Origin: a virus
Virus record (IMG/VR): IMGVR_UViG_3300023208_000004
Span: 100,098-164,097 of that record
Reading direction: 5' to 3' (one strand)
DNA: 64,000 bases
Part shown: in pieces, positions 1,463 through 40,865 of the stretch
Layout of the letters: each line of letters begins with the position of its first letter
Position numbering within the stretch: position 1 is the first letter of the stretch
Program-made: the position numbers and the translations under genes
Notes under the pieces: generated by a model
The model's database searches: none
What the model was told of the DNA's origin: nothing
What the model saw: only the letters and a program-made list of their open reading frames with translations

Positions 1463-4400
1463 TTATGCTGTAACTGTTGCTGGAGTTGGTTCTCCGAACT
1501 TAGAAGAAAACTTACTATAAAGCTGATTATAAATCATTTCTCCAAATTCTTCTTTATTATCTTCAAATTTTTCTGACAATAAAGAAACCAAAGCTTCATC
1601 TCCAGTTAGATTAAATCCAATATCTAAAAATAACTTTGTGTCTGGTTGAACAGCGCTCAAGTTAGGATTACCACTGTCATTGGTGCTCGGAGTAGGATTA
1701 CCACTGTCATTGGTGCTCGGAGATTTTCTATTTTTATTAAGGATTTCCTTAATGTAGCCGTTTATTTCTTTTAGTTGCGTATTTAGAGAATCTCGTTCTG
1801 TGGAATTAGAAGATACGTTTACCTTTCTGTAAAGTATGTCTCTACGTTTTTCTAACCTTTGTAAAGCGATATTGTCTTCTTCAGTAAGTCCGGCCCGACC
1901 TAGGGCTACGCCTCTAAGCGCATTAATGCTTTTTATTTCTTTTTCAGTTCCTGTCATTTTTTGATATGCAACATCAGCCGGTGTAGGGACTCCTTCTGGT
2001 AAAAACGAAGGAAAAAGTGAAGAAATTATCATGCCCCCCAGCGAGGAATGAGCAGCAGCAATACGCGCGTAGTCCATCTTTGAAAATTCCCTTTTTCCAT
2101 CATCTTCTGGAAGACTGTTTGCAAAATTTTCTGCTTCTTTAAGTTTTGGATTTGGTTTATTTTCACCACCCCTTAACGCGGCCGATTTTATTTCATTTAT
2201 CAACTTAATTTGATTTTCTAAAGATTTATTATGAGCATTCCAAAGCGCAACTGTTTGTGCGGCAGCCGTTCTTAAATCTGTGAAATTAGTTTTCAATCCT
2301 TGCGATTCATTCGCTATTTCCCTAAAACGCGCAAGTGCATCGGCTATATTTGTGTCTAATTGTTGTTTTGCAAATTTTGGAGAAAGGACTTTTTCAAGCT
2401 CGTTTGCAATAGCAGAAGGCAAAACCTGTATTCCCTTTGCTATTGAAGATATATCATCCGGCATTTTATCTGATTTTAGTTCTTTGTTAATTTGCTCTTT
2501 CGCAATAAGCCCAGTCTTTGATTTTGCAGACATAAGTTCTTCTATGGCTCCGAGAATAGCCCCCCTCTTTTGCGGGTCTTTCGTGCGAGATAAAGCTCTT
2601 TCTAATGAAAGGACTTGAGTCCTAATATCTTTATTTAGCGATTTTTCAAGGCCAACAGCCGCGATTTGCCTCAAACCTGCGCCTGACTTTCCTCCCAAAT
2701 AATCGGTGCCAAGCATTTTTTGTAAATTTTGTCCAAGCTTTAAGGCTCCACGTCCACTACGAATGTCATTATTTCCTAAAATGAAAGAGCTTGCTCCACG
2801 GGCTATATTTGTATTTAATTCTCTTGCCTCGTCAGGGTTTGAGAAAGAAGAAGCTCCACCTCTAAAAGCGAGTCTTTGATTTTTGTCATATGAAAAATTT
2901 GAAATTTTAATTGCGTCAGCAGCCTTTCTGAATTCGTCTCTCATTTCGTCATTGTTTATTTTTTCTAAGATTTTATTTGCATAAATTCTTTCTTCTTTAG
3001 ATATTTGATTCCCCCTCATCAAGTCATCTAAACTTCGTTTCATAATGTTTGTTGAATTCATTATTTCTGTTGTGTTGCCTCTTTTCATTATCCCTTGAAA
3101 CATATTTGACACTATATCAGTTATATGGGTTTTATCTGTATTTATGGATACCTCTTCTTCTTTTCCGGTTTTTGGATTTTTTCTTTTGGTTTTTGTTTCT
3201 GATTCAATATCTAAACTAGAAACAGCCTCGCTCAATGTTTTTTTAAACATTTGTCCAATATTGTTGATTGCCGTTTCTTTAGTTTCAAATTCTCTTACGA
3301 ACCTTTCTCCAGTAAATGATGAAGCATAATCTATCCCAATACGTCTGTCAGTGAGAGAGGAGTCTATCTTTCGTAAAAATCCAGCTTTTATAGAAGAACG
3401 ATAGTCTTTAATTGCTTTAGTAAGCAGTTCTTGTTCTGCGTTTACTAGAGATTTTTTTATTCTATTCTTTTTTATTTCTTCTGTTTCATTAGCTAATGAT
3501 TCATTAACATTTCTTGCTGTGATTGCTAGAGCTTTTATCGCTGAAGTAAGAATAGAAAATTGTAGTGGGTCATTCCCCCCCAATTGAGAAAGAAATATGG
3601 CATGAGCTTTTCCAAAAATAGATTCTAATTTTTTTAAACTTTCTGTTCGTTGTCCTTCTGTTTCGAAATTTAAAGAATCAGAAGTAAAACTATCAAGCTT
3701 TCCTTTTTGCTCTTCATCCATAGACAGCAAAACTCCTTTTGCGTATGAATTAACATTTAATTCTGCCGCACTCCTACCACGACCAGAGTCAAAAAATATA
3801 TTTTTATTATTTTTATAAATCTCCGCATATTTCGAAGCCGTCTCAAATTGCGAACGTTCTTTGTCAGACTTTTCTCGAAATTCTTCTATAACTTTTACTT
3901 TTTCTTTTTCTGATGTTGTATCTTGTAATTTTTTAGCTAAGCCTGCCCCACCAAGAGTAATCATATCCCTGAGCGTCGCTGAAAGTTTGCGTTTCACATT
4001 GTTTAAACTCTCCGCATCTGCATTATCTGAAGATAGAATTTCATTTTGTTTAGAAAGCAACTGAAGATATTTATCACCTTCTTGTGAAATTTTCTTATCG
4101 GTTTCGATTTTTGATTCAAGAGTTTTTATTTTGTAAGTTGCATCTCTTAGGCTTTTTTGATAAATTTCATAAACATTTATTATACCTATTGTTAAACCAG
4201 CTAATATCCCAATTGGCCCCGGCAAAGCCATCATAACTTGCGCCGAAGTCATCATTGCATTTCCAAGTTCTTGTGTCCTTTCTTTAAGAGGATTTGTATT
4301 ATCCATTAAAGAAGAAGCCATTGAGACAGCGCTTGATGCGGCAAACCCGCCTCCAGTTGCATAACTTTTCCATTTTTCTACCGCCCCCTTTCTTGAAAGA

Positions 4401-7400
4401 CTTTTTTCAACATCTCTAACTTGAGTTCTAGTTTCTACTATCTCTTTTCTTTTTGCTACCATTTTCGCTTCTGCTAATTGTCTTTGACTTTCTGCATTGT
4501 TAAAATCTGCGCGAGTAACTGATGCTGCTCTGGCTTGTAAAGCTGCATGGCGCTCATCTTTAGCTTTATGAAAGGCTCCCCTACTTTCTATAACTTTTTT
4601 ATTTAACATTTCTAAACTGTCTTTTAATTTTTGAGTGCCATCAAGTAGCCCTTTTACGTTCCCTAAAGAATTGACAAACATAGTCAAACCAAACAAACCA
4701 GACGCTCCAACGCCCCCAATTAACCCATCATCTGCGAAATTCGGAATAAAACCTTTTGCCCTTCCAGCATTTCTTGGGTCAAGACCCTTGCTTAAATAAC
4801 GATTTATTCCTTGATATCCACCAATGGGTTCGTCCCTTTTATTGGCGACTCCAATTCCGAGTGGATTACCAGTTGAAATTAATTTCTTATTAGAGAATGC
4901 ATAAATTTGAGAATATGGGAGTCCAGATTGTTTTTTCTCTCTGTTTATCGCTTCAGAAACTCCGAAGCTTGGGATATAACCAAAACTTAAAGATGGAACA
5001 TTTTTTATTCCAGCAATTTGAGCAAGAGTAAACCTATGATTTCCGTCGGAAATTTCTCTATGATTTTCTGGAAAATCTCGCACGGAAATAGGATTCTTTT
5101 TTAAAAATTGATAAAGCTTTTTTTTGTTTGTTTTAGAAGAAAATAATTCTCCAATGCCAGATTTTGTAATCTCACCATCATAATCAAAGCCTATATAAGA
5201 TAACAAGTTTTTCAAACCTTCAGTATGTGGACGATTAGCTTGAGATAGTGTTCCTCCAGACTCAAGGAGCTTTTTTATATTAAAAACTTTTGAAAAACTA
5301 GGAATAAATCCACGAGAAAAAGGAATAAACAAAGAGCCAGATAATCCCCTCGTCTTAAATAAATTACCGTCTCCTTCAGCAAATGGAGCCTTGATTCCAG
5401 TAAATTTTTGGGCTCTTAAAATATTAGTTAATTCGCGGCCCGCCAGTTGGATAAGTTGTAATTGTTCCTCGCCAGAAGCATTTTTAATTTTTGCTGCCAG
5501 ACCTTTTGGTAACATATGTTCGTATTTTTTATATAAACGAACAATATCAGAGTATTTCCCTAGTTCAAGAATTTTATCTGTCTCAGACAGTTTTTGAGAA
5601 ATGACATTTTTGTTATAAAGTTTGGCGATTTTTTCATTATCAGTAAAATTACCTTGTCCTATGACGGCGACCAATTTATTAGCGACTCCAATAGAATTTC
5701 TTCCCAGATTTTCAGGAAGAGTTGGGCGACCAGAGCGAGTTCCTCTAAAAACTGTTGGGCCGCTTGTATCAGGGGTAAAACCACCCGCCAAACTTAATAA
5801 CCCTTGATTATGGCCGTATTTTTTCGCAAACTTTTTGGCGGACTTAACGAATTGTTCCATATACTGTGGGTCCGATTCTTTAACGCCTTTCTTCGCTAAA
5901 ACCTCTTTCAGCCAACGGCTTTGAAAGACGTTTCTTCCCTTGAAGATTAAATCTTGAGCAAAATTTGGAATATAGCCCAAAGATTTCATTATTCCTCCAC
6001 GATGGGAGTCGGCGTGGATTAGCGTAGCAGTAATTTCAGATTTACCTAACCTAGCAATTGCTTGGATATTTGCAATGGCGTCGTCATTTAAGTGATATTC
6101 GCCGCCCTGCTTTTCTTGTAGTCTTTTTAATAATAGGGCTTTTTTTTGTGCTGAATTTAATTTTGTATAACCGGGAGAATTTTTCCCTCCAGTATTTTTA
6201 ATACGACCAATAGAGTTTATTCTAAGGTCATTAAACATATCTCCAACGCCGATTACCTTCTTAGGGAATAGACCAAGTTTAGTAAGACGATTAACAATTG
6301 CGGCCCTGTTTTCTTTTGAGCTTCTTGCTGTTAGGACTTCTACTTGTTTTCCAATCAAGCCCTCTCCATGAGGTGTTAGTTTAGAGCTAGGATGAAATAT
6401 AGATTTTTCAGGAGTAAATGTGTCCGCATAGCCGACTTCTGGCCCATAGGTTAAAAGAGTTTCGTCCAAGTCCTGAAATACTCTTTGAGCAAAATTCGGG
6501 ATATGACCCAAAGAAGCTAACCCAATTCTAAAATTTGTATAGTTTCCATAGGCTCCTGCATTTTCTGAACTTTTCTCGAAAGATTTTGTATTGAAGCCAT
6601 GTTTATCAAGAAAGCTCCTTACGAATTTTATACTGCCAAATTGCGCCCTGCTATTTAATTCTTCGTCGGCGTTGAAACTCGGCATATCAATACGGATTTG
6701 CTTGTAGCCCATTTTCTTGAGCATACCCATATTCACTTTGAAAGCTTGATAAGCGTCTTTTGCGTTTCTAATGGTTCTTAGGTCTATATAAGCTGGCCTG
6801 TTAGCGGCACTTGTCTCTCTTGAACCGAACTTTGTTTGTCCGTAAACGGCTTTGAGCCCAGAGACTAACTTGGAGTTTATTTTTGTTCCAAAGTCTGCGG
6901 TTAGCTTTGTAGAATAAGAGTATGCGCTAACTCCTCTGTTTGCTATGCCTCCACCAGCTTGAAAAAACATACTACCTAAGCTTTGGTCAATTCCAGATTC
7001 TACATTTGACAAATTAGGATTTGTATATGAACGAACTATATTTGGGCGGCGCTGCGCTTGTCTGATAAAATTAGATAGCTCATCTGCACCTAAAGTTCCC
7101 CTGCGGCCTATTGTTGGAACTCTCACTCCTAATTTAGATGCTGCGTATAAGAACAACTCGTCCGATAAGCCAATTCCTTCTTTTAATTTTTCGAGAATAC
7201 TTTGTCCATTTGGCAAATTAGCACAGGCTTGTGTTACTTTTTCTATAGTTTTTTGAGAAGCGAAATTAGGGATATAACCGCTTGCTGCGAGCATTGGCGC
7301 TCTTGAAGATTTATTTAACAAACTAAGACTCGATACTCCCAGTCTGTCTTTTAGAATTTTAGCCGCCATGCTTTTTCTTGCGTCGTCAGAGTCGGAAGAT

Positions 7401-9898
7401 TTGAACTCGGCTTTTCTTCCAATAGGCAAAGGAAGACCTAATGGACTTTTAAAAATCTTTGATAGTTGAGCGGGGATAGCCGCTATATCAAAATCCCCCC
7501 CGCTTGTAGTTCCGGCCACTTTTTCTCCAAATGCCAATCTCATCCCTGACTCGAAAACACCACCAACAACTGACTGGACCGCACCGAGAAGTCCCTTAGA
7601 CTCGTTCATAGCTCTATGCATGGCTTTTGAAGCCGTAGCTTGGGATATGGCGGGACCAAAAGTGCCAGCAAATCCAGCAACTTGATTTATTAAAAATTCA
7701 TTAATATTTTTATTTAAATCAATAGGAGGATATACCGAATCTGGACTAAATCCAAATACCCCGAATGGTAATAAATGGCCACCAAGCCTTTTGATTCTCC
7801 TTCCTTGAATTGGGATTCGAGGTTTTGAATAAGAAAGCAAAGAATAATCGGAAACACTTAATGTCCTTATCGCCTCTGGAATATTTACTGATGATTTAGA
7901 TAAATCTTTCTCTGTTTGTTTTTCTTTCGTGCTTACGTATCCAGCTTGCGCTGCCTGTTCTGGTGTTATTTTTCCAATTCTTATTTGATGAGGAATTTGA
8001 AATTGATTAAATGTTTGTCCATTAATAGTATAAACATCTTTCGCAAAATTAGGAACCCACCCCCTCATGTATTTAGGAATAACCATCGAATCCCCACTAC
8101 GAGTAGGCATACCCATCGCTCTAAATTGAGCGCCGGTGATTTCCTTTTCGTGATTATTCATTATGAATGGGCGACCACCAATTGTTCCTTTACCCCATTG
8201 TGCCCTGACAGAAGAAGGAGCGCCCAATCTTCTAGCCGAAGCTTCTTCTATTGCAAAAGCTGGAACGTGACCAGCGGCAGAAGTTTTAGGAGCGCCAAAT
8301 AAATTTGTTACCGAAGTTCTAACTCCAGACTTAACCATTTGTAGAGCTATATCCTGCGCGACTTTTGCCTGAAAAGCTAAAAGAGAATTTTCATCTCTTA
8401 TACTCTGTAGAATTCTTTGATGCGCCTGTTCTACTGTCACAGTTCCTCGATTTATTTCTTTGAGAATTTCTGGATTCTTCTGAAGATAAAGAAGGACTTG
8501 TTGTTGTATTAATTGATAATCTTTTGCGGATTGATTGATTCCCATGAATTCTCTAAAAGAATCGCCAGCAAATCTTGTCAATTTTTCAAAAAGCTTCAAC
8601 ACTGTAAAAGTCAACAATTGGACGCCGGGACCGCTCAATAATTGCCCAAAAGATTTTAGAAATCCTTGAAAGATTTTGTCTCCAATTCCTTCTCCAATGG
8701 CAGAGTCTCCTATATTTTTCGCTAAATCTCCAAATGTATCCAAACCCCCTTTAAGGGTCGGAGAAAGGGTAATATTTCCCACGTTTGCCGCTGCTCTTGT
8801 AAAGTTATTTAATGTTTGAGTGAGTTTGGCGGAAATTGTTTGATTTAACTTATTATTTCTGTCTATCGCGTCATCAACTGTATTATTGGCGGTTTTAAGA
8901 GCTGAATCGTAAACGCTTACTCCATTGCCTAAGTCTTGCAGAACAGCTTTCAAAATGTTAATTTGATAAACCCCACCAACAGTTTCAGCAATTGAAGACC
9001 TTTGAGAACCGCTTAGATTGTCATATTGTCTAGCTAGACTTTTTAGAACATCAATTAACGGCAGCGCATTTCCAGAAGCGTCTTTAGTAGCTATTCCAAC
9101 TTCTTGTAATTGAGAAATCACCTCTGGACGTTGCAAACGAGTAAAAATAGTCTTAAAAGAGTTACCAATAACAGCACCACCGCGAGCCGTAGTCTGTTGC
9201 GCTGTAGTAATTAAGGCAATAGTTTCATTTAGCGAAATGTTCGCTTCACTGGCCGAACTACCCACGCGTTTTATACCTTCCGCTAAATCTCCAGCGCTTA
9301 CAGAAAATCTAGCGTCAACAGTTGCCAATCTATTAACAAGTTCGATAGCTGTTAAGGACTCTGTATTAAAAGAGTTAAGTGCGGCAGTAATAGAAGCAAC
9401 GGCATCTGCATAATCAACGCCAGATAATCTACTTAAAATCAAAGAAGCCCTAGTCCTTTCCAATGTTTCAGCAGCAGACAAGCCCTGTCTCGAAAATTCT
9501 TGAGCAGCTTTCGCCGCGTTCCCAAATGATGTAGCGGTATTGTTAGCTACTTCAAAAAGCCCAGTAGAGAATCTACTTAGTTCTTTCTGTGACAAATTAA
9601 GAATGGCATTGATGTCTGAAAGACTTTTTTCTACTTCAATTGTAGAACCAAGCAACTTATCAAATGCAATTTTTACAGCGGCAATTGCTCCAGCAGAAGC
9701 TCCGAACGCGATAACACGAGCGTTAGACGCTTCAAGAGATTTTGAGAACTCAGAGGCTTTTCCAGTGATTTTTCCTAGAGGCTGGTCAATTCCAGCGACA
9801 TTCAATGAGCCAAGTCTCCTTGGCCTATTTAAAGCCCTATCTATGACCTGTTCCAGCGGCCTTGGGTCACCACCCACTGTAAGAATAATATCTGGCAT
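1463..9898 (-). CDS. Tail tape measure protein, multi-domain, 2811 aa
   Basis: This is the longest gene in the window, at the tape-measure position: after the tail tube and two or three small chaperone-position genes, before the distal tail gene. Residues 50-400 resemble the TP901-type tape measure core (alternating Ala/Ser-rich helices, TTARGGAVIGNSFKTIFTR near 240). Unusually, residues 540-1720 are not coiled coil. Globular segments are separated by eight copies of a G(F/Y/H/W)(I/V)PNFA-like motif near residues 542, 612, 873, 1131, 1307, 1530, 1639 and 1715. One segment (1137-1220) has HAD-phosphatase motifs, DLDET, LTAR and GVGDMFND. Another (about 1610-1635) carries a ParB-like DGNHR...VPSL motif. 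A hydrophobic stretch lies near 1885-1910, then long helical coiled coil. The C-terminus contains an exactly duplicated PSTNDSGNP. The tape measure role is confident; the embedded enzymes are inference. Confidence 0.93.
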   Translation of the reverse strand: MPDIILTVGGDPRPLEQVIDRALNRPRRLGSLNVAGIDQPLGKITGKASEFSKSLEASNARVIAFGASAGAIAAVKIAFDKLLGSTIEVEKSLSDINAILNLSQKELSRFSTGLFEVANNTATSFGNAAKAAQEFSRQGLSAAETLERTRASLILSRLSGVDYADAVASITAALNSFNTESLTAIELVNRLATVDARFSVSAGDLAEGIKRVGSSASEANISLNETIALITTAQQTTARGGAVIGNSFKTIFTRLQRPEVISQLQEVGIATKDASGNALPLIDVLKSLARQYDNLSGSQRSSIAETVGGVYQINILKAVLQDLGNGVSVYDSALKTANNTVDDAIDRNNKLNQTISAKLTQTLNNFTRAAANVGNITLSPTLKGGLDTFGDLAKNIGDSAIGEGIGDKIFQGFLKSFGQLLSGPGVQLLTFTVLKLFEKLTRFAGDSFREFMGINQSAKDYQLIQQQVLLYLQKNPEILKEINRGTVTVEQAHQRILQSIRDENSLLAFQAKVAQDIALQMVKSGVRTSVTNLFGAPKTSAAGHVPAFAIEEASARRLGAPSSVRAQWGKGTIGGRPFIMNNHEKEITGAQFRAMGMPTRSGDSMVIPKYMRGWVPNFAKDVYTINGQTFNQFQIPHQIRIGKITPEQAAQAGYVSTKEKQTEKDLSKSSVNIPEAIRTLSVSDYSLLSYSKPRIPIQGRRIKRLGGHLLPFGVFGFSPDSVYPPIDLNKNINEFLINQVAGFAGTFGPAISQATASKAMHRAMNESKGLLGAVQSVVGGVFESGMRLAFGEKVAGTTSGGDFDIAAIPAQLSKIFKSPLGLPLPIGRKAEFKSSDSDDARKSMAAKILKDRLGVSSLSLLNKSSRAPMLAASGYIPNFASQKTIEKVTQACANLPNGQSILEKLKEGIGLSDELFLYAASKLGVRVPTIGRRGTLGADELSNFIRQAQRRPNIVRSYTNPNLSNVESGIDQSLGSMFFQAGGGIANRGVSAYSYSTKLTADFGTKINSKLVSGLKAVYGQTKFGSRETSAANRPAYIDLRTIRNAKDAYQAFKVNMGMLKKMGYKQIRIDMPSFNADEELNSRAQFGSIKFVRSFLDKHGFNTKSFEKSSENAGAYGNYTNFRIGLASLGHIPNFAQRVFQDLDETLLTYGPEVGYADTFTPEKSIFHPSSKLTPHGEGLIGKQVEVLTARSSKENRAAIVNRLTKLGLFPKKVIGVGDMFNDLRINSIGRIKNTGGKNSPGYTKLNSAQKKALLLKRLQEKQGGEYHLNDDAIANIQAIARLGKSEITATLIHADSHRGGIMKSLGYIPNFAQDLIFKGRNVFQSRWLKEVLAKKGVKESDPQYMEQFVKSAKKFAKKYGHNQGLLSLAGGFTPDTSGPTVFRGTRSGRPTLPENLGRNSIGVANKLVAVIGQGNFTDNEKIAKLYNKNVISQKLSETDKILELGKYSDIVRLYKKYEHMLPKGLAAKIKNASGEEQLQLIQLAGRELTNILRAQKFTGIKAPFAEGDGNLFKTRGLSGSLFIPFSRGFIPSFSKVFNIKKLLESGGTLSQANRPHTEGLKNLLSYIGFDYDGEITKSGIGELFSSKTNKKKLYQFLKKNPISVRDFPENHREISDGNHRFTLAQIAGIKNVPSLSFGYIPSFGVSEAINREKKQSGLPYSQIYAFSNKKLISTGNPLGIGVANKRDEPIGGYQGINRYLSKGLDPRNAGRAKGFIPNFADDGLIGGVGASGLFGLTMFVNSLGNVKGLLDGTQKLKDSLEMLNKKVIESRGAFHKAKDERHAALQARAASVTRADFNNAESQRQLAEAKMVAKRKEIVETRTQVRDVEKSLSRKGAVEKWKSYATGGGFAASSAVSMASSLMDNTNPLKERTQELGNAMMTSAQVMMALPGPIGILAGLTIGIINVYEIYQKSLRDATYKIKTLESKIETDKKISQEGDKYLQLLSKQNEILSSDNADAESLNNVKRKLSATLRDMITLGGAGLAKKLQDTTSEKEKVKVIEEFREKSDKERSQFETASKYAEIYKNNKNIFFDSGRGRSAAELNVNSYAKGVLLSMDEEQKGKLDSFTSDSLNFETEGQRTESLKKLESIFGKAHAIFLSQLGGNDPLQFSILTSAIKALAITARNVNESLANETEEIKKNRIKKSLVNAEQELLTKAIKDYRSSIKAGFLRKIDSSLTDRRIGIDYASSFTGERFVREFETKETAINNIGQMFKKTLSEAVSSLDIESETKTKRKNPKTGKEEEVSINTDKTHITDIVSNMFQGIMKRGNTTEIMNSTNIMKRSLDDLMRGNQISKEERIYANKILEKINNDEMRDEFRKAADAIKISNFSYDKNQRLAFRGGASSFSNPDEARELNTNIARGASSFILGNNDIRSGRGALKLGQNLQKMLGTDYLGGKSGAGLRQIAAVGLEKSLNKDIRTQVLSLERALSRTKDPQKRGAILGAIEELMSAKSKTGLIAKEQINKELKSDKMPDDISSIAKGIQVLPSAIANELEKVLSPKFAKQQLDTNIADALARFREIANESQGLKTNFTDLRTAAAQTVALWNAHNKSLENQIKLINEIKSAALRGGENKPNPKLKEAENFANSLPEDDGKREFSKMDYARIAAAHSSLGGMIISSLFPSFLPEGVPTPADVAYQKMTGTEKEIKSINALRGVALGRAGLTEEDNIALQRLEKRRDILYRKVNVSSNSTERDSLNTQLKEINGYIKEILNKNRKSPSTNDSGNPTPSTNDSGNPNLSAVQPDTKLFLDIGFNLTGDEALVSLLSEKFEDNKEEFGEMIYNQLYSKFSSKFGEPTPATVTA
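1663..1722. repeat. Perfect 30-bp tandem duplication
   Basis: Units 1663-1692 and 1693-1722 are identical and in frame within the tape measure gene. They encode a doubled Pro-Ser-Thr-Asn-Asp-Ser-Gly-Asn-Pro linker near its C-terminus. This looks like a recent slippage or duplication. Confidence 0.9.
4735..8275 (-). repeat. Dispersed GxIPNFA peptide-motif repeats inside the tape measure gene
   Basis: Eight degenerate copies encode G(F/Y/H/W)(I/V)P(N/S/A)F(A/S/G), at about 8255-8275, 8041-8063, 7261-7282, 6488-6508, 5957-5978, 5291-5313, 4963-4983 and 4735-4755. Spacing is irregular (about 70-260 residues). They punctuate otherwise unrelated globular segments, like linkers or processing sites. 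Confidence 0.85.
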
Positions 9899-9935: not shown

Positions 9936-10820
9936 TTAGCGAGTAACGTAATTCGTTTTTTTATAAATGCCGTCAGGTTGATTATTTTTATTCTTATTTT
10001 GGTAAATGGAGTGTTCAGTGTCATACCAGTCCACCAACTCTTTTACAGTAGTATCTTCGTGAATATCTGGCGGATTATTTTCTGAATTTTCTATTATTCT
10101 GATATTTCTTACTGTCTTGGAAAAAAGATTCAACTGATAATCAGAAAAAGCTATAATTGGTTTCCCAAAAAACTCATATGGCCTATCTTTACAAAAGCTA
10201 ATTTGGTTTATGACAAATGGAAGCGCCGCTAAAGACCCGAGACTTGTTTCTGAAAATTTAGAAAATGCCCTATTTTGTTCTTCTATTAAATTGTCTAGCT
10301 CAGACTCCTCTACGGCATCAAATTCATCACTAGAAAAAGCCTTTATTTTTAATTGTTCATCTTTATAGAACCCATGAAATACAAATAAAGAAAGCAAATA
10401 TTTTTGAGCCAAAATATCAGCGGTAGGATTTAGTGCGGAATACCTTTCCATTAACAAGCTGTTGAGTTCTTGTTTTTTTTCGGTAATTACTTTTTCTATA
10501 ACTTTTCTTTGCTCTAGGAGTGGCATATTGGCCACGACTTTTGAGTTGTCAGAAATTAAGTATTTTAATTCTAGGATTTTTTCTTCTTTTTCGGGAAGCC
10601 AAACTCCTTGTTCGGCTAGGATTTTAAGTTTTTCCGATTCAGTTGGAACACCCTCTGAGTTTTTTAACTTTATATAGGCTGATTTTTTTTCAGCAAAGAA
10701 TGAGTTATCTAATTCTGAAAAATGCTTTATATACCAACTCGTTTTTTCGCTAAAAGAATAGCCATTTACTATTTCCTTAAATAAGGAGCGAAAATTTTCA
10801 TATTCATCATAGACTAACAC
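9936..10820 (-). CDS. Tail-region protein, tape-measure-adjacent (unknown)
   Basis: 294-residue charged, mostly helical protein with no recognised domain. It lies directly upstream of the tape measure gene, 37 bases away, and 12 bases downstream of the 259-residue gene. Many tailed phages have tail assembly chaperones here, which is a positional inference only. Glu/Lys-rich helices around residues 60-130 look like coiled coil. I saw no programmed frameshift joining it to its neighbour. Confidence 0.75.
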   Translation of the reverse strand: MLVYDEYENFRSLFKEIVNGYSFSEKTSWYIKHFSELDNSFFAEKKSAYIKLKNSEGVPTESEKLKILAEQGVWLPEKEEKILELKYLISDNSKVVANMPLLEQRKVIEKVITEKKQELNSLLMERYSALNPTADILAQKYLLSLFVFHGFYKDEQLKIKAFSSDEFDAVEESELDNLIEEQNRAFSKFSETSLGSLAALPFVINQISFCKDRPYEFFGKPIIAFSDYQLNLFSKTVRNIRIIENSENNPPDIHEDTTVKELVDWYDTEHSIYQNKNKNNQPDGIYKKTNYVTR

Positions 10821-10832
10821 ATGATGATAAAA

Positions 10833-11612
10833 TTATACCGGCTCTTCCACTACGACATAATCATCAAATTCATTACTATATAAGTCTTCCAAATTCTTAA
10901 CGTCGTTTTGTGACAAAGACCCAGTTGTTGACCAATAGCTGACAAAATATGCAAGTTTCCTCATTACTTCATTAAGAAAAGCGTCGCCATTTTCTTCTGC
11001 TTTGTCGTATGAATCTAATTTCTGTTCATAAGAATCGCCCGTAAAGATAGGGACAAATTCTCCTTTTTCATTTTCAATTACGCCTAAGTGTAGCGTCCAC
11101 CAAAAGACCGCTTTGTTTCTTGCTTTGACTTCCGCCGTTTGATTAAAGATAGAGTAATACGGACTCTGGATAGAATCAATCTGTTGTTGAGTTTCTTGCA
11201 GTTGTAATAGAGTATCGTTTTGTTTTTTTTCTTGTTCTGGAGTTTTAGGAGTAATAGCTGCCGACTCTAATAGCTGCCTGTTGAGGTCTTTTCTTTTTAC
11301 GTCCAGAAGTTCTATGGTCTTTTTTTCGTCATCATTTAATGCGCCGCCATCGTTGTCATATCTTTTCGCAATCATATGAAGACTTAACAACCCTTCTTTC
11401 ATAAGTTGCGAAAGGGTTTTAGCATAGAAAGTTTCTGCGCCTTCTCTAAGTTTGCGCGTTGGTTTGATAAGTTTGACCTTGACAGGCTTGGCTTTTTTGA
11501 TAGACTTTGTTACTTCGACTTCTTTCCCTTCGTCTATCTTTTTTTCTGTAACTTTGTCTTCAATTTGTTTTTTGACAACGAATTCGCAAAGATATTTGTT
11601 GACTACTTCCAT
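10833..11612 (-). CDS. Tail-region protein, chaperone position (unknown)
   Basis: 259 residues. The N-terminal 50 are very Lys/Glu-rich, followed by a predicted coiled coil with QQQIDS around 140 and a more globular, aromatic C-terminal half ending in acidic VVVEEPV. It sits between the tail tube and tape measure genes, where assembly chaperones or tail completion factors are usually found. Function not recognised. Confidence 0.75.
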   Translation of the reverse strand: MEVVNKYLCEFVVKKQIEDKVTEKKIDEGKEVEVTKSIKKAKPVKVKLIKPTRKLREGAETFYAKTLSQLMKEGLLSLHMIAKRYDNDGGALNDDEKKTIELLDVKRKDLNRQLLESAAITPKTPEQEKKQNDTLLQLQETQQQIDSIQSPYYSIFNQTAEVKARNKAVFWWTLHLGVIENEKGEFVPIFTGDSYEQKLDSYDKAEENGDAFLNEVMRKLAYFVSYWSTTGSLSQNDVKNLEDLYSNEFDDYVVVEEPV

Positions 11613-31753: not shown

Positions 31754-33592
<1,839 letters not shown>

Positions 33593-39749: not shown

Positions 39750-40865
39750 ATGAAAAAAATAGCTTTAGGAATGATAGTTAAAAATGAGGCCCACGTTATC
39801 GAGAGATGCTTGGATAGTGTTAAAAACCTTATTGACATGGTTGTTATAGCCGATACTGGCTCATCAGATAATACAATTGAAACAACAAAAAAATGGCTTA
39901 TTAAAAATAATATCCCCGGCGAAATATTTCTCGAAGAATGGAAAGATTTTGCCCACAATAGAAGCTCCGTTCTTGCAAAAATAAGAAACATAAAAGAAAT
40001 AGATTATGTATTAATGATAGACGCTGATGAAGTTTTGGTTTTTGAAGAAAATTTTGATTTCAAAAAATTTAAAAATGAACTTACGGACGAAGTTTATCAT
40101 ATAACAACAGATTTTGGAGCTACCCAATATTCTCGACCACAAATATCCAGCAACAAAAAACCATTCATATATCGTGGTGTTGTGCATGAATTTTTAGATT
40201 GTTTAGAGTCTATTAATTCTCATGGAAAAGCTATAGGATTTGTGAATCGCCCCTTTCAAGATAGCAATAGAAATAAAATAGGTCAAAAATTTGAGAAAGA
40301 CGCAGAAATTCTAAAATGCGCGCTTGAAGTTGAGAAAGATGAATTTTTAATTTCTAGGTATTCTTTTTATCTTGCCCAATCTTTAAAGGACTGTGGAAAG
40401 CGTGGAGAAGCAATAAAGTATTATACAAAAAGAATCTCCTTGGGATTTTGGGAAGAGGAAAGGTTCTGGGCCGCATATCAAATCGCTCAACTCAAAGAAA
40501 GTTTAAAACACCCAATAGACGACATAATCCAGTCATTCCTTTATGCACACGAAATATGCCCAAAAAGGATAGAGGCTTTACATGGTGCCATGCGAATTTG
40601 TAGATTAAATAGTAAAAATAATCAAGCATATATGCTTGGTAAATATGCCATTTCATTACCCAAAATAAATGACGGACTTTTTGTAGAAAAATGGATATAT
40701 GATTATGGTCTATTAGACGAATTTTCAATAGCCGCTTATTGGGCGGGTTACTATGAAGAATCTCGTAACGCTTGTTTAAATCTATTATCAACGAATACTT
40801 TGCCAGAATCATACAGGAAAAGAGTAAAACAAAATCTGCAATTCTCTCTTAATAAATTAAAATAA
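39750..40865 (+). CDS. GT2-family glycosyltransferase with helical repeat C-terminus
   Basis: 371 residues. GT-A start MKKIALGMIVKNEAHVIERC, ADTGSSDNT, and the metal-binding DADEV motif (YVLMIDADEVLVFEE) near residue 90. The C-terminal half (about 190-371) is helical and TPR-like (EKDEFLISRYSFYLAQSLKD). It starts directly after the GT9-like stop. Resembles SunS-type and other GT2 enzymes; acceptor unknown. Confidence 0.88.
   Translation: MKKIALGMIVKNEAHVIERCLDSVKNLIDMVVIADTGSSDNTIETTKKWLIKNNIPGEIFLEEWKDFAHNRSSVLAKIRNIKEIDYVLMIDADEVLVFEENFDFKKFKNELTDEVYHITTDFGATQYSRPQISSNKKPFIYRGVVHEFLDCLESINSHGKAIGFVNRPFQDSNRNKIGQKFEKDAEILKCALEVEKDEFLISRYSFYLAQSLKDCGKRGEAIKYYTKRISLGFWEEERFWAAYQIAQLKESLKHPIDDIIQSFLYAHEICPKRIEALHGAMRICRLNSKNNQAYMLGKYAISLPKINDGLFVEKWIYDYGLLDEFSIAAYWAGYYEESRNACLNLLSTNTLPESYRKRVKQNLQFSLNKLK

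Follow-up and report, generated by a model that had tools for sequence, protein, structure and literature searches.

The window analysed here is a 64,000-nucleotide stretch of a virus record from IMG/VR, in which the ORF at 9898..1463 (-) encodes a protein of 2811 aa. This protein is a tape measure protein (TMP), since residues 117-309 match PhageMin_Tail (Pfam, 5.2e-31) and the first ~435 residues are matched by a dozen PHROG tape-measure families, the best at 4e-49. Terminase and tail-fibre genes are present in the same window. A collagen-like tail fibre protein is encoded at 31754-33592 (-), and 39750-40865 (+) is a moron-class gene resembling those for beta-1,4-glycosyltransferases. The gene directly upstream of the TMP (9936..10820, -) is, judged from its position, probably a tail assembly chaperone; a gene family at the -1 place, on the same strand as the TMP, is kept in 146 related loci. 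The two genes preceding the TMP (9936-11612, -) have no match in PHROG, and as positional counterparts of the conserved same-strand -1 and -2 families they probably represent a new family of tail assembly chaperones.

Between residues 543 and 1722 of the TMP (window 4733-8272) lie eight heptads of the form G[FYHW][IV]P[NAS]F[ASG]. A preliminary description of the sequence had reported this number and span, with coordinates that proved correct within 3 bases. Chance origin is ruled out by shuffling, as the mean number of heptads expected from 5000 shuffles of the TMP sequence is 0.0006 and the maximum 1. Outside the TMP, the string PNFA is absent from all six reading frames of the window. The same description held that the heptads bound unrelated segments, which applies to the five variable cargo segments (S1 to S5) of the seven that the motifs enclose, whereas the first and last (aa 550-612 and 1647-1715) are conserved anchors. 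The parts of the gene are as follows.

1463..9898, minus strand: TMP ORF, 2811 aa (Pfam and PHROG matches)
8273..9898, minus strand: N-terminal core, aa 1-542, with PhageMin_Tail at 117-309 and a TM-like stretch at 62-80
8252..8272, minus strand: motif 1, GHVPAFA, aa 543-549
8063..8251, minus strand: anchor A, aa 550-612, conserved first segment common to relatives (10 members)
8042..8062, minus strand: motif 2, GWVPNFA, aa 613-619
7280..8041, minus strand: cargo S1, aa 620-873, putatively PD-(D/E)XK-like by its residues E783, D804, E831-x-K833 and K847; no Foldseek fold match
7259..7279, minus strand: motif 3, GYIPNFA, aa 874-880
6509..7258, minus strand: cargo S2, aa 881-1130
6488..6508, minus strand: motif 4, GHIPNFA, aa 1131-1137
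5978..6487, minus strand: cargo S3, aa 1138-1307, predicted HAD phosphatase with D1143, D1145, T1147, T1190, R1192, K1253 and D1272
5957..5977, minus strand: motif 5, GYIPNFA, aa 1308-1314
5312..5956, minus strand: cargo S4, aa 1315-1529
5291..5311, minus strand: motif 6, GFIPSFS, aa 1530-1536
4982..5290, minus strand: cargo S5, aa 1537-1639, C-terminal half possibly ParB/sulfiredoxin-like (weak)
4961..4981, minus strand: motif 7, GYIPSFG, aa 1640-1646
4754..4960, minus strand: anchor B, aa 1647-1715, the last segment, conserved in a cluster of 159 members
4733..4753, minus strand: motif 8, GFIPNFA, aa 1716-1722
1463..4732, minus strand: C-terminal region, aa 1723-2811, rod-like composition, one TM-like stretch at 1886-1904
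9936..10820, minus strand: gene next to the TMP on its upstream side; by position a probable tail assembly chaperone

Folds and conserved residues of the window cargo

The cargo is predicted to be soluble. It is richer in proline plus glycine (14.4%) and in aromatic residues (9.9%) than the flanking rods (9-10% and about 6%, respectively), and TM-like stretches occur at 0.06 per 1000 aa in the cargo compared with 2.2 in the N part and 1.0 in the C part. AlphaFold2 models, which cover segments S1 and S3, are compact and alpha/beta. Composition and models thus both argue against one continuous helical rod, and the view that the TMP holds several globular, partly enzymatic segments bounded by motifs is borne out, not only in the window but across the family described below.

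S1 belongs to the commonest cassette cluster, with 189 members, and in the 142 that are non-redundant at 70% the positions E783, D804, [DE]831-x-K833 and [KQ]847 are 99-100% conserved. These residues suggest a PD-(D/E)XK-like nuclease. The S1 model (mean pLDDT 76) has no match in PDB or BFVD by Foldseek, and a profile search of PDB also gave none. S3 is predicted to be a HAD phosphatase: HAD motifs I-IV (DxDx(T), T, K and D) are present, and seven catalytic or near-catalytic residues are invariant in the 12 members. The top Foldseek matches of its model (mean pLDDT 86) are mostly HAD proteins, including the Lem4 HAD domain, bacterial Pnkp1 and other HAD phosphatases, at probability 0.85-1.00 with moderate E-values of 4e-3 to 3e-2 and low TM-scores.

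These two families bear on the proposal that the segments have a structural task, as spacers or decoys by which tail length is tuned or the DNA channel shielded, their enzyme folds being relict. The segments do lie within a ruler protein, and the summed cargo length differs between TMPs. However, catalytic residues of the PD-(D/E)XK-like and HAD families remain 99-100% conserved while the remainder diverges to about 20% identity, and close relatives with near-identical N-terminal cores differ by entire cassettes, making a purely structural role highly improbable.

Assignments for the other segments are weaker. The C-terminal half of S5 is possibly ParB/sulfiredoxin-like, with a Pfam match to ParB_N at 0.0075, under the curated cutoff, and a PDB match to ParB at 0.33. 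The likeness of S2 to another cassette is confined to its first ~48 aa, and this segment contains C892, the sole cysteine of the whole window TMP. S4 opens with a module of ~55 aa that elsewhere forms a separate motif-bounded segment, and a second domain without an assignment follows it. Neither S2 nor S4 has relatives in viral contigs by pattern search or a usable match in PDB. Assignment of S4 as an ADP-ribosyltransferase was rejected after profile comparison with six ART-like cassettes proved negative.

A metagenomic family with exchangeable cassettes

A search for related loci with the whole TMP gave no match, and the DNA pattern of the motif recovered the family instead. IMG/VR was scanned with four DNA codings of the heptad, with an in-frame motif required for ORFs, yielding at least 376 loci and at least 354 ORFs with an in-frame motif. 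The TMP N-terminal profile is found in 237 of the 354 motif ORFs listed; those without it are mostly truncated where the available sequence stops, and a small number of short ORFs resemble chance matches. Members of the family share a layout of N-terminal core, anchor A (~60-80 aa), cargo, anchor B (~50-70 aa) and rod-like C-terminal region. Among the matches listed, nearly all of 180 complete N-termini have the first motif at one of two fixed offsets, ~505 or ~590 aa counted from where the conserved core begins, a complete TMP carries 1-6 variable cargo segments (125 complete cargo regions), and a total of 832 segments (656 at 95% identity) fall into 167 sequence clusters.

The motif thus marks a large family of TMPs that is apparently undescribed, and searches of open-access papers on PNFA or on TMPs with effector, nuclease, toxin or polyvalent domains gave no description of the architecture. 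Isolate phages in INPHARED yielded relatives for the TMP core only (tblastn, about aa 80-450), and two cassettes searched alone in this collection had no match. A scan of GTDB with a stricter motif pattern gave 20 matches. Five of them, each from a MAG (Proteobacteria, Verrucomicrobiales, Flavobacteriales, Flavobacteriaceae and Woesebacteria), resemble the TMP-cargo architecture; only two of these five (L388 and L389) have the TMP N-terminal profile, and the scan points to no firm host. Sparse matches confined to MAGs would be the pattern expected of mostly non-integrated phages of uncultured hosts.

Related TMPs exchange their cassettes at the motif. In 169 related TMP pairs, 72% of breakpoints fall within 5 aa of a motif compared with 5.9% at random, and in 40 independent pairs, where each ORF was entered once (57 breakpoints), the values are 77% and 6.5% expected. 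For example, L037 and L282 share 96% identity from aa 1 to 1412, a stretch that ends with a motif (1406-1412); the cassette after it is unrelated, and homology returns at the following motif. L221 and L189, with N-termini 88% identical, differ by a P-loop cassette gained at a motif. Cassette sets also differ among L107, L010, L348 and L275 despite 88-95% identical N-termini, and six cassette pairs are found in both orders. In the model proposed below, the motif would be a standard joint at which cassettes can enter, leave or replace one another while the rod stays intact.

Derived from 333 copies, the motif reads [AS]-x-G-[FY]-[IV]-P-N-F-A, and its flanks are not conserved. A role of the motif as a DNA-level recombination site was rejected, given that third codon positions match the background; what is conserved is therefore the peptide and not the DNA. 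This bears on the possibility that selfish elements, similar to homing nucleases or inteins, use the motif to invade TMP genes in frame, and that the cassettes are such passengers. The movement of cassettes at the motif between related TMPs would agree with such passengers, as would the predominance of nuclease-like cassettes, which are the commonest type (in 100 of the 125 complete cargo regions among the matches listed). However, the ordinary codon usage of the motif reveals no conserved DNA target, many cassettes are not nucleases, and the cargo is cysteine-free and keeps the conserved catalytic sites of unrelated enzymes. Inteins, moreover, depend on catalytic Cys, Ser or Thr and splice out. 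We accord selfish spread very little probability.

Enzymes recognised in the cargo of related TMPs are of several kinds, and their assignment is better supported than that of the window segments. A full-length CCA tRNA nucleotidyltransferase lies between two motifs at L307:7575-8981 (+), with an HD-like C-terminal part and 0 Cys in 469 aa; it matches a CCA repair enzyme at 1.2e-41 and Pfam PolyA_pol above cutoff, and the ORF that contains it (3548 aa) has the TMP core and nine motifs. An SNase cassette matches thermonuclease at 1.2e-9 with its catalytic residues kept, a HIGH-type nucleotidyltransferase-associated domain and GNATs exceed Pfam cutoffs, and a GHKL ATPase cassette falls just under its cutoff. 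A GHKL ATPase-like domain lies inside the TMP at aa 960-1529 in L049 and L028, two contigs of identical architecture. P-loop, kinase-like, ART-like and HExxH cassettes are assigned by sequence pattern alone; comparison of the ART-like and protein-kinase-like cassettes with PDB profiles returned nothing. HExxH occurs in 4 of the 167 cassette clusters, and those of the window segments are not among the four. Metallopeptidase-like cassettes (HExxH-type or similar) are present in L213, L163, L005 and L079, and by analogy with what has been proposed for polyvalent proteins they could process the TMP. Matches of the cargo to PADLOC are weak.

This repertoire is relevant to whether the cassettes reach only the periplasm or membrane and act there on the envelope or on entry factors, as lytic TMP domains do. 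Known enzymatic TMP domains are directed at the cell wall, for example in the transglycosylase-annotated SPbeta YomI, and TMPs become inserted in the inner membrane or close to it (PMC13190303). Yet SNase, the CCA-adding enzyme, GHKL and GNAT need cytoplasmic nucleic acid, ATP, tRNA or acetyl-CoA, and the cargo census contains no cell-wall hydrolase family. An exclusively periplasmic site of action is accordingly quite unlikely. The cargo exposes about 150 cluster families, most without a family match, which probably act on host defence or physiology.

Cysteine depletion and a model of delivery

Cysteine is almost excluded from the cargo. With one representative taken per cluster (151 cargo clusters), 4 Cys occur in 43,704 aa, where 321 would be expected from the rate of 0.734% in other ORFs of the same loci. 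The TMP N-terminal core has 0 Cys in 86,400 residues, and nine isolate-phage TMPs used as controls (L400-L408, 1379-3326 aa) lack both Cys (0 in 22,484 residues) and the GxIPNF motif. An injected virion RNA polymerase of N4-like type, of 3428 aa, is likewise without Cys (PMC4837373). Depletion of the cargo as well as of the TMP places both under one constraint, which argues that the cargo stays in the TMP in the virion. Since the depletion is common to TMPs generally, it speaks for this shared constraint and is no proof that the cassettes reach the cytoplasm. Proteins that pass through the tail may generally lack Cys, and we suggest this absence as a simple fingerprint of such proteins. One neighbouring family of the related loci (75 loci, median 196 aa), whose gene precedes the TMP by about four genes, is also nearly Cys-free at 0.014%, compared with 0.2-0.8% in other tail-region families.

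The depletion also bears on the alternative that the cassettes serve the producing cell, with the TMP being cut at the motifs before or during assembly, the enzymes acting late and the anchors and rods alone entering the virion. For such processing the motif would offer an exposed and highly conserved linker preceding each domain, and cleavage before packaging is known for the multi-domain phage proteins DarA and DdrB of P1 (PMC5512222). However, late action in the producing cell gives no reason for fusion to the TMP or for the Cys-free state (4 against 321 Cys), and no protease gene was consistently seen beside the TMP, nor an immunity gene in this position, among conserved neighbour families that were clustered and only partly annotated. 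We consider this use of the cassettes unlikely. The low confidence of the residues just before the motif in both the S1 and the S3 model suggests that the motif sits in an exposed linker. It quite probably serves as a docking site or passive linker, and a function as a cleavage site is doubtful.

The preliminary description proposed that the segments are delivered effectors, akin in idea to polyvalent proteins and released at the motifs. Conserved catalytic residues, enzymes of cytoplasmic type, cassette exchange and Cys-free cargo lend the idea of delivered effectors good indirect support, while the delivery step itself and release at the motifs we infer. We think it fairly likely that the TMP carries the enzymes inside the tail lumen and delivers them on infection. 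The TMP would then have a dual use, as a ruler and membrane-penetration rod whose middle is a magazine of independently folding enzyme cassettes, each parted from the next by a flexible [AS]xG[FY][IV]PNFA linker. In the virion the cassettes would lie inside the tail lumen, probably unfolded or squeezed, within a few TMP copies. Ejected with the TMP before the DNA, they would fold inside the host cell and be active during the earliest minutes of infection. In addition, a tail protein or chaperone may dock at the motif, or a protease may cut there and free the cassettes. During injection of the lambda genome the TMP associates with inner-membrane entry proteins (PMC13190303). Because few TMP copies enter, catalytic domains are what would be expected as cargo. 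A point against delivery is that passage of globular domains of 100-570 aa through a narrow tube would require reversible unfolding.

The cassettes would likely harm the DNA of the host or of rivals, alter host factors, or mend RNA attacked by host defence. Nuclease-like cassettes would suit attack on host or rival DNA, and the CCA-adding enzyme together with HAD and P-loop cassettes would suit repair of RNA cut by host nucleases. In its broadest form, the model is of a general platform in tailed phages of uncultured bacteria, in which a universal GxIPNFA joint allows almost any Cys-free soluble enzyme to be delivered to the cytoplasm, perhaps cut at the joint, as an early anti-defence or takeover effector; on this wider claim our judgement is evenly divided. 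If true, the TMP, usually seen as a passive ruler or pore former, becomes a modular vehicle for effector delivery, and engineered protein delivery by ordinary laboratory phages could draw on TMP cassettes.

Relation to known systems

Enzymatic domains within TMPs have precedents. The TMP of mycobacteriophage TM4 carries a peptidoglycan-hydrolase motif. SPbeta YomI has the same N-terminal TMP core (29% identity by tblastn), extra domains inside the TMP and no Cys. These enzymatic TMPs differ from the window TMP in being typically directed at the cell wall, and nine reference TMPs have no GxIPNFA motifs. The N4-like virion RNA polymerase is also very large and Cys-free and is injected with the DNA (PMC4837373), a route that we infer for the window TMP; it differs in being no TMP and in having no motif-bounded array of multiple cassettes.

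Polyvalent proteins, like the window TMP, join disparate enzymatic domains in one large phage polypeptide (PMC5512222). Their domains include nuclease, ParB-like, ART-like, GNAT and metallopeptidase types, and they are thought to enter the host with the DNA (Iyer et al. 2017, PMC5512222). Several disparate activities are similarly found here, with putative HAD, PD-(D/E)XK-like and weak ParB-like segments in the window and CCA enzyme, SNase, GNAT and GHKL cassettes in relatives. In contrast to polyvalent proteins, the carrier here is a TMP, and the domains are fenced by a single heptad and swapped at it; the main text of the polyvalent-protein paper does not mention the term 'tape measure' (PMC5512222). 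The window cargo is also not accompanied by a zincin-like metallopeptidase (HExxH), the predicted processor in polyvalent proteins.

Contractile injection systems load and eject TMP-like effectors, among them Sle1 of Streptomyces lividans and Tme of S. davawensis (PMC13277306). As in the window TMP, a TMP-like rod is combined with a variable, exchangeable effector part in a tube derived from a phage tail (PMC13277306). They differ in belonging to contractile injection systems of bacterial genomes, in placing the variable domain at the C-terminus and in having DUF4157 partners or domains; DUF4157 was not seen in Pfam scans of the window TMP. Here the carrier is a true phage TMP, found in a virus record with terminase and tail fibres, and its several cassettes are internal and bounded by motifs. 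By analogy, the window TMP would work like both a polyvalent protein and the TMP-related effectors of contractile injection systems, yet it is not simply one or the other.
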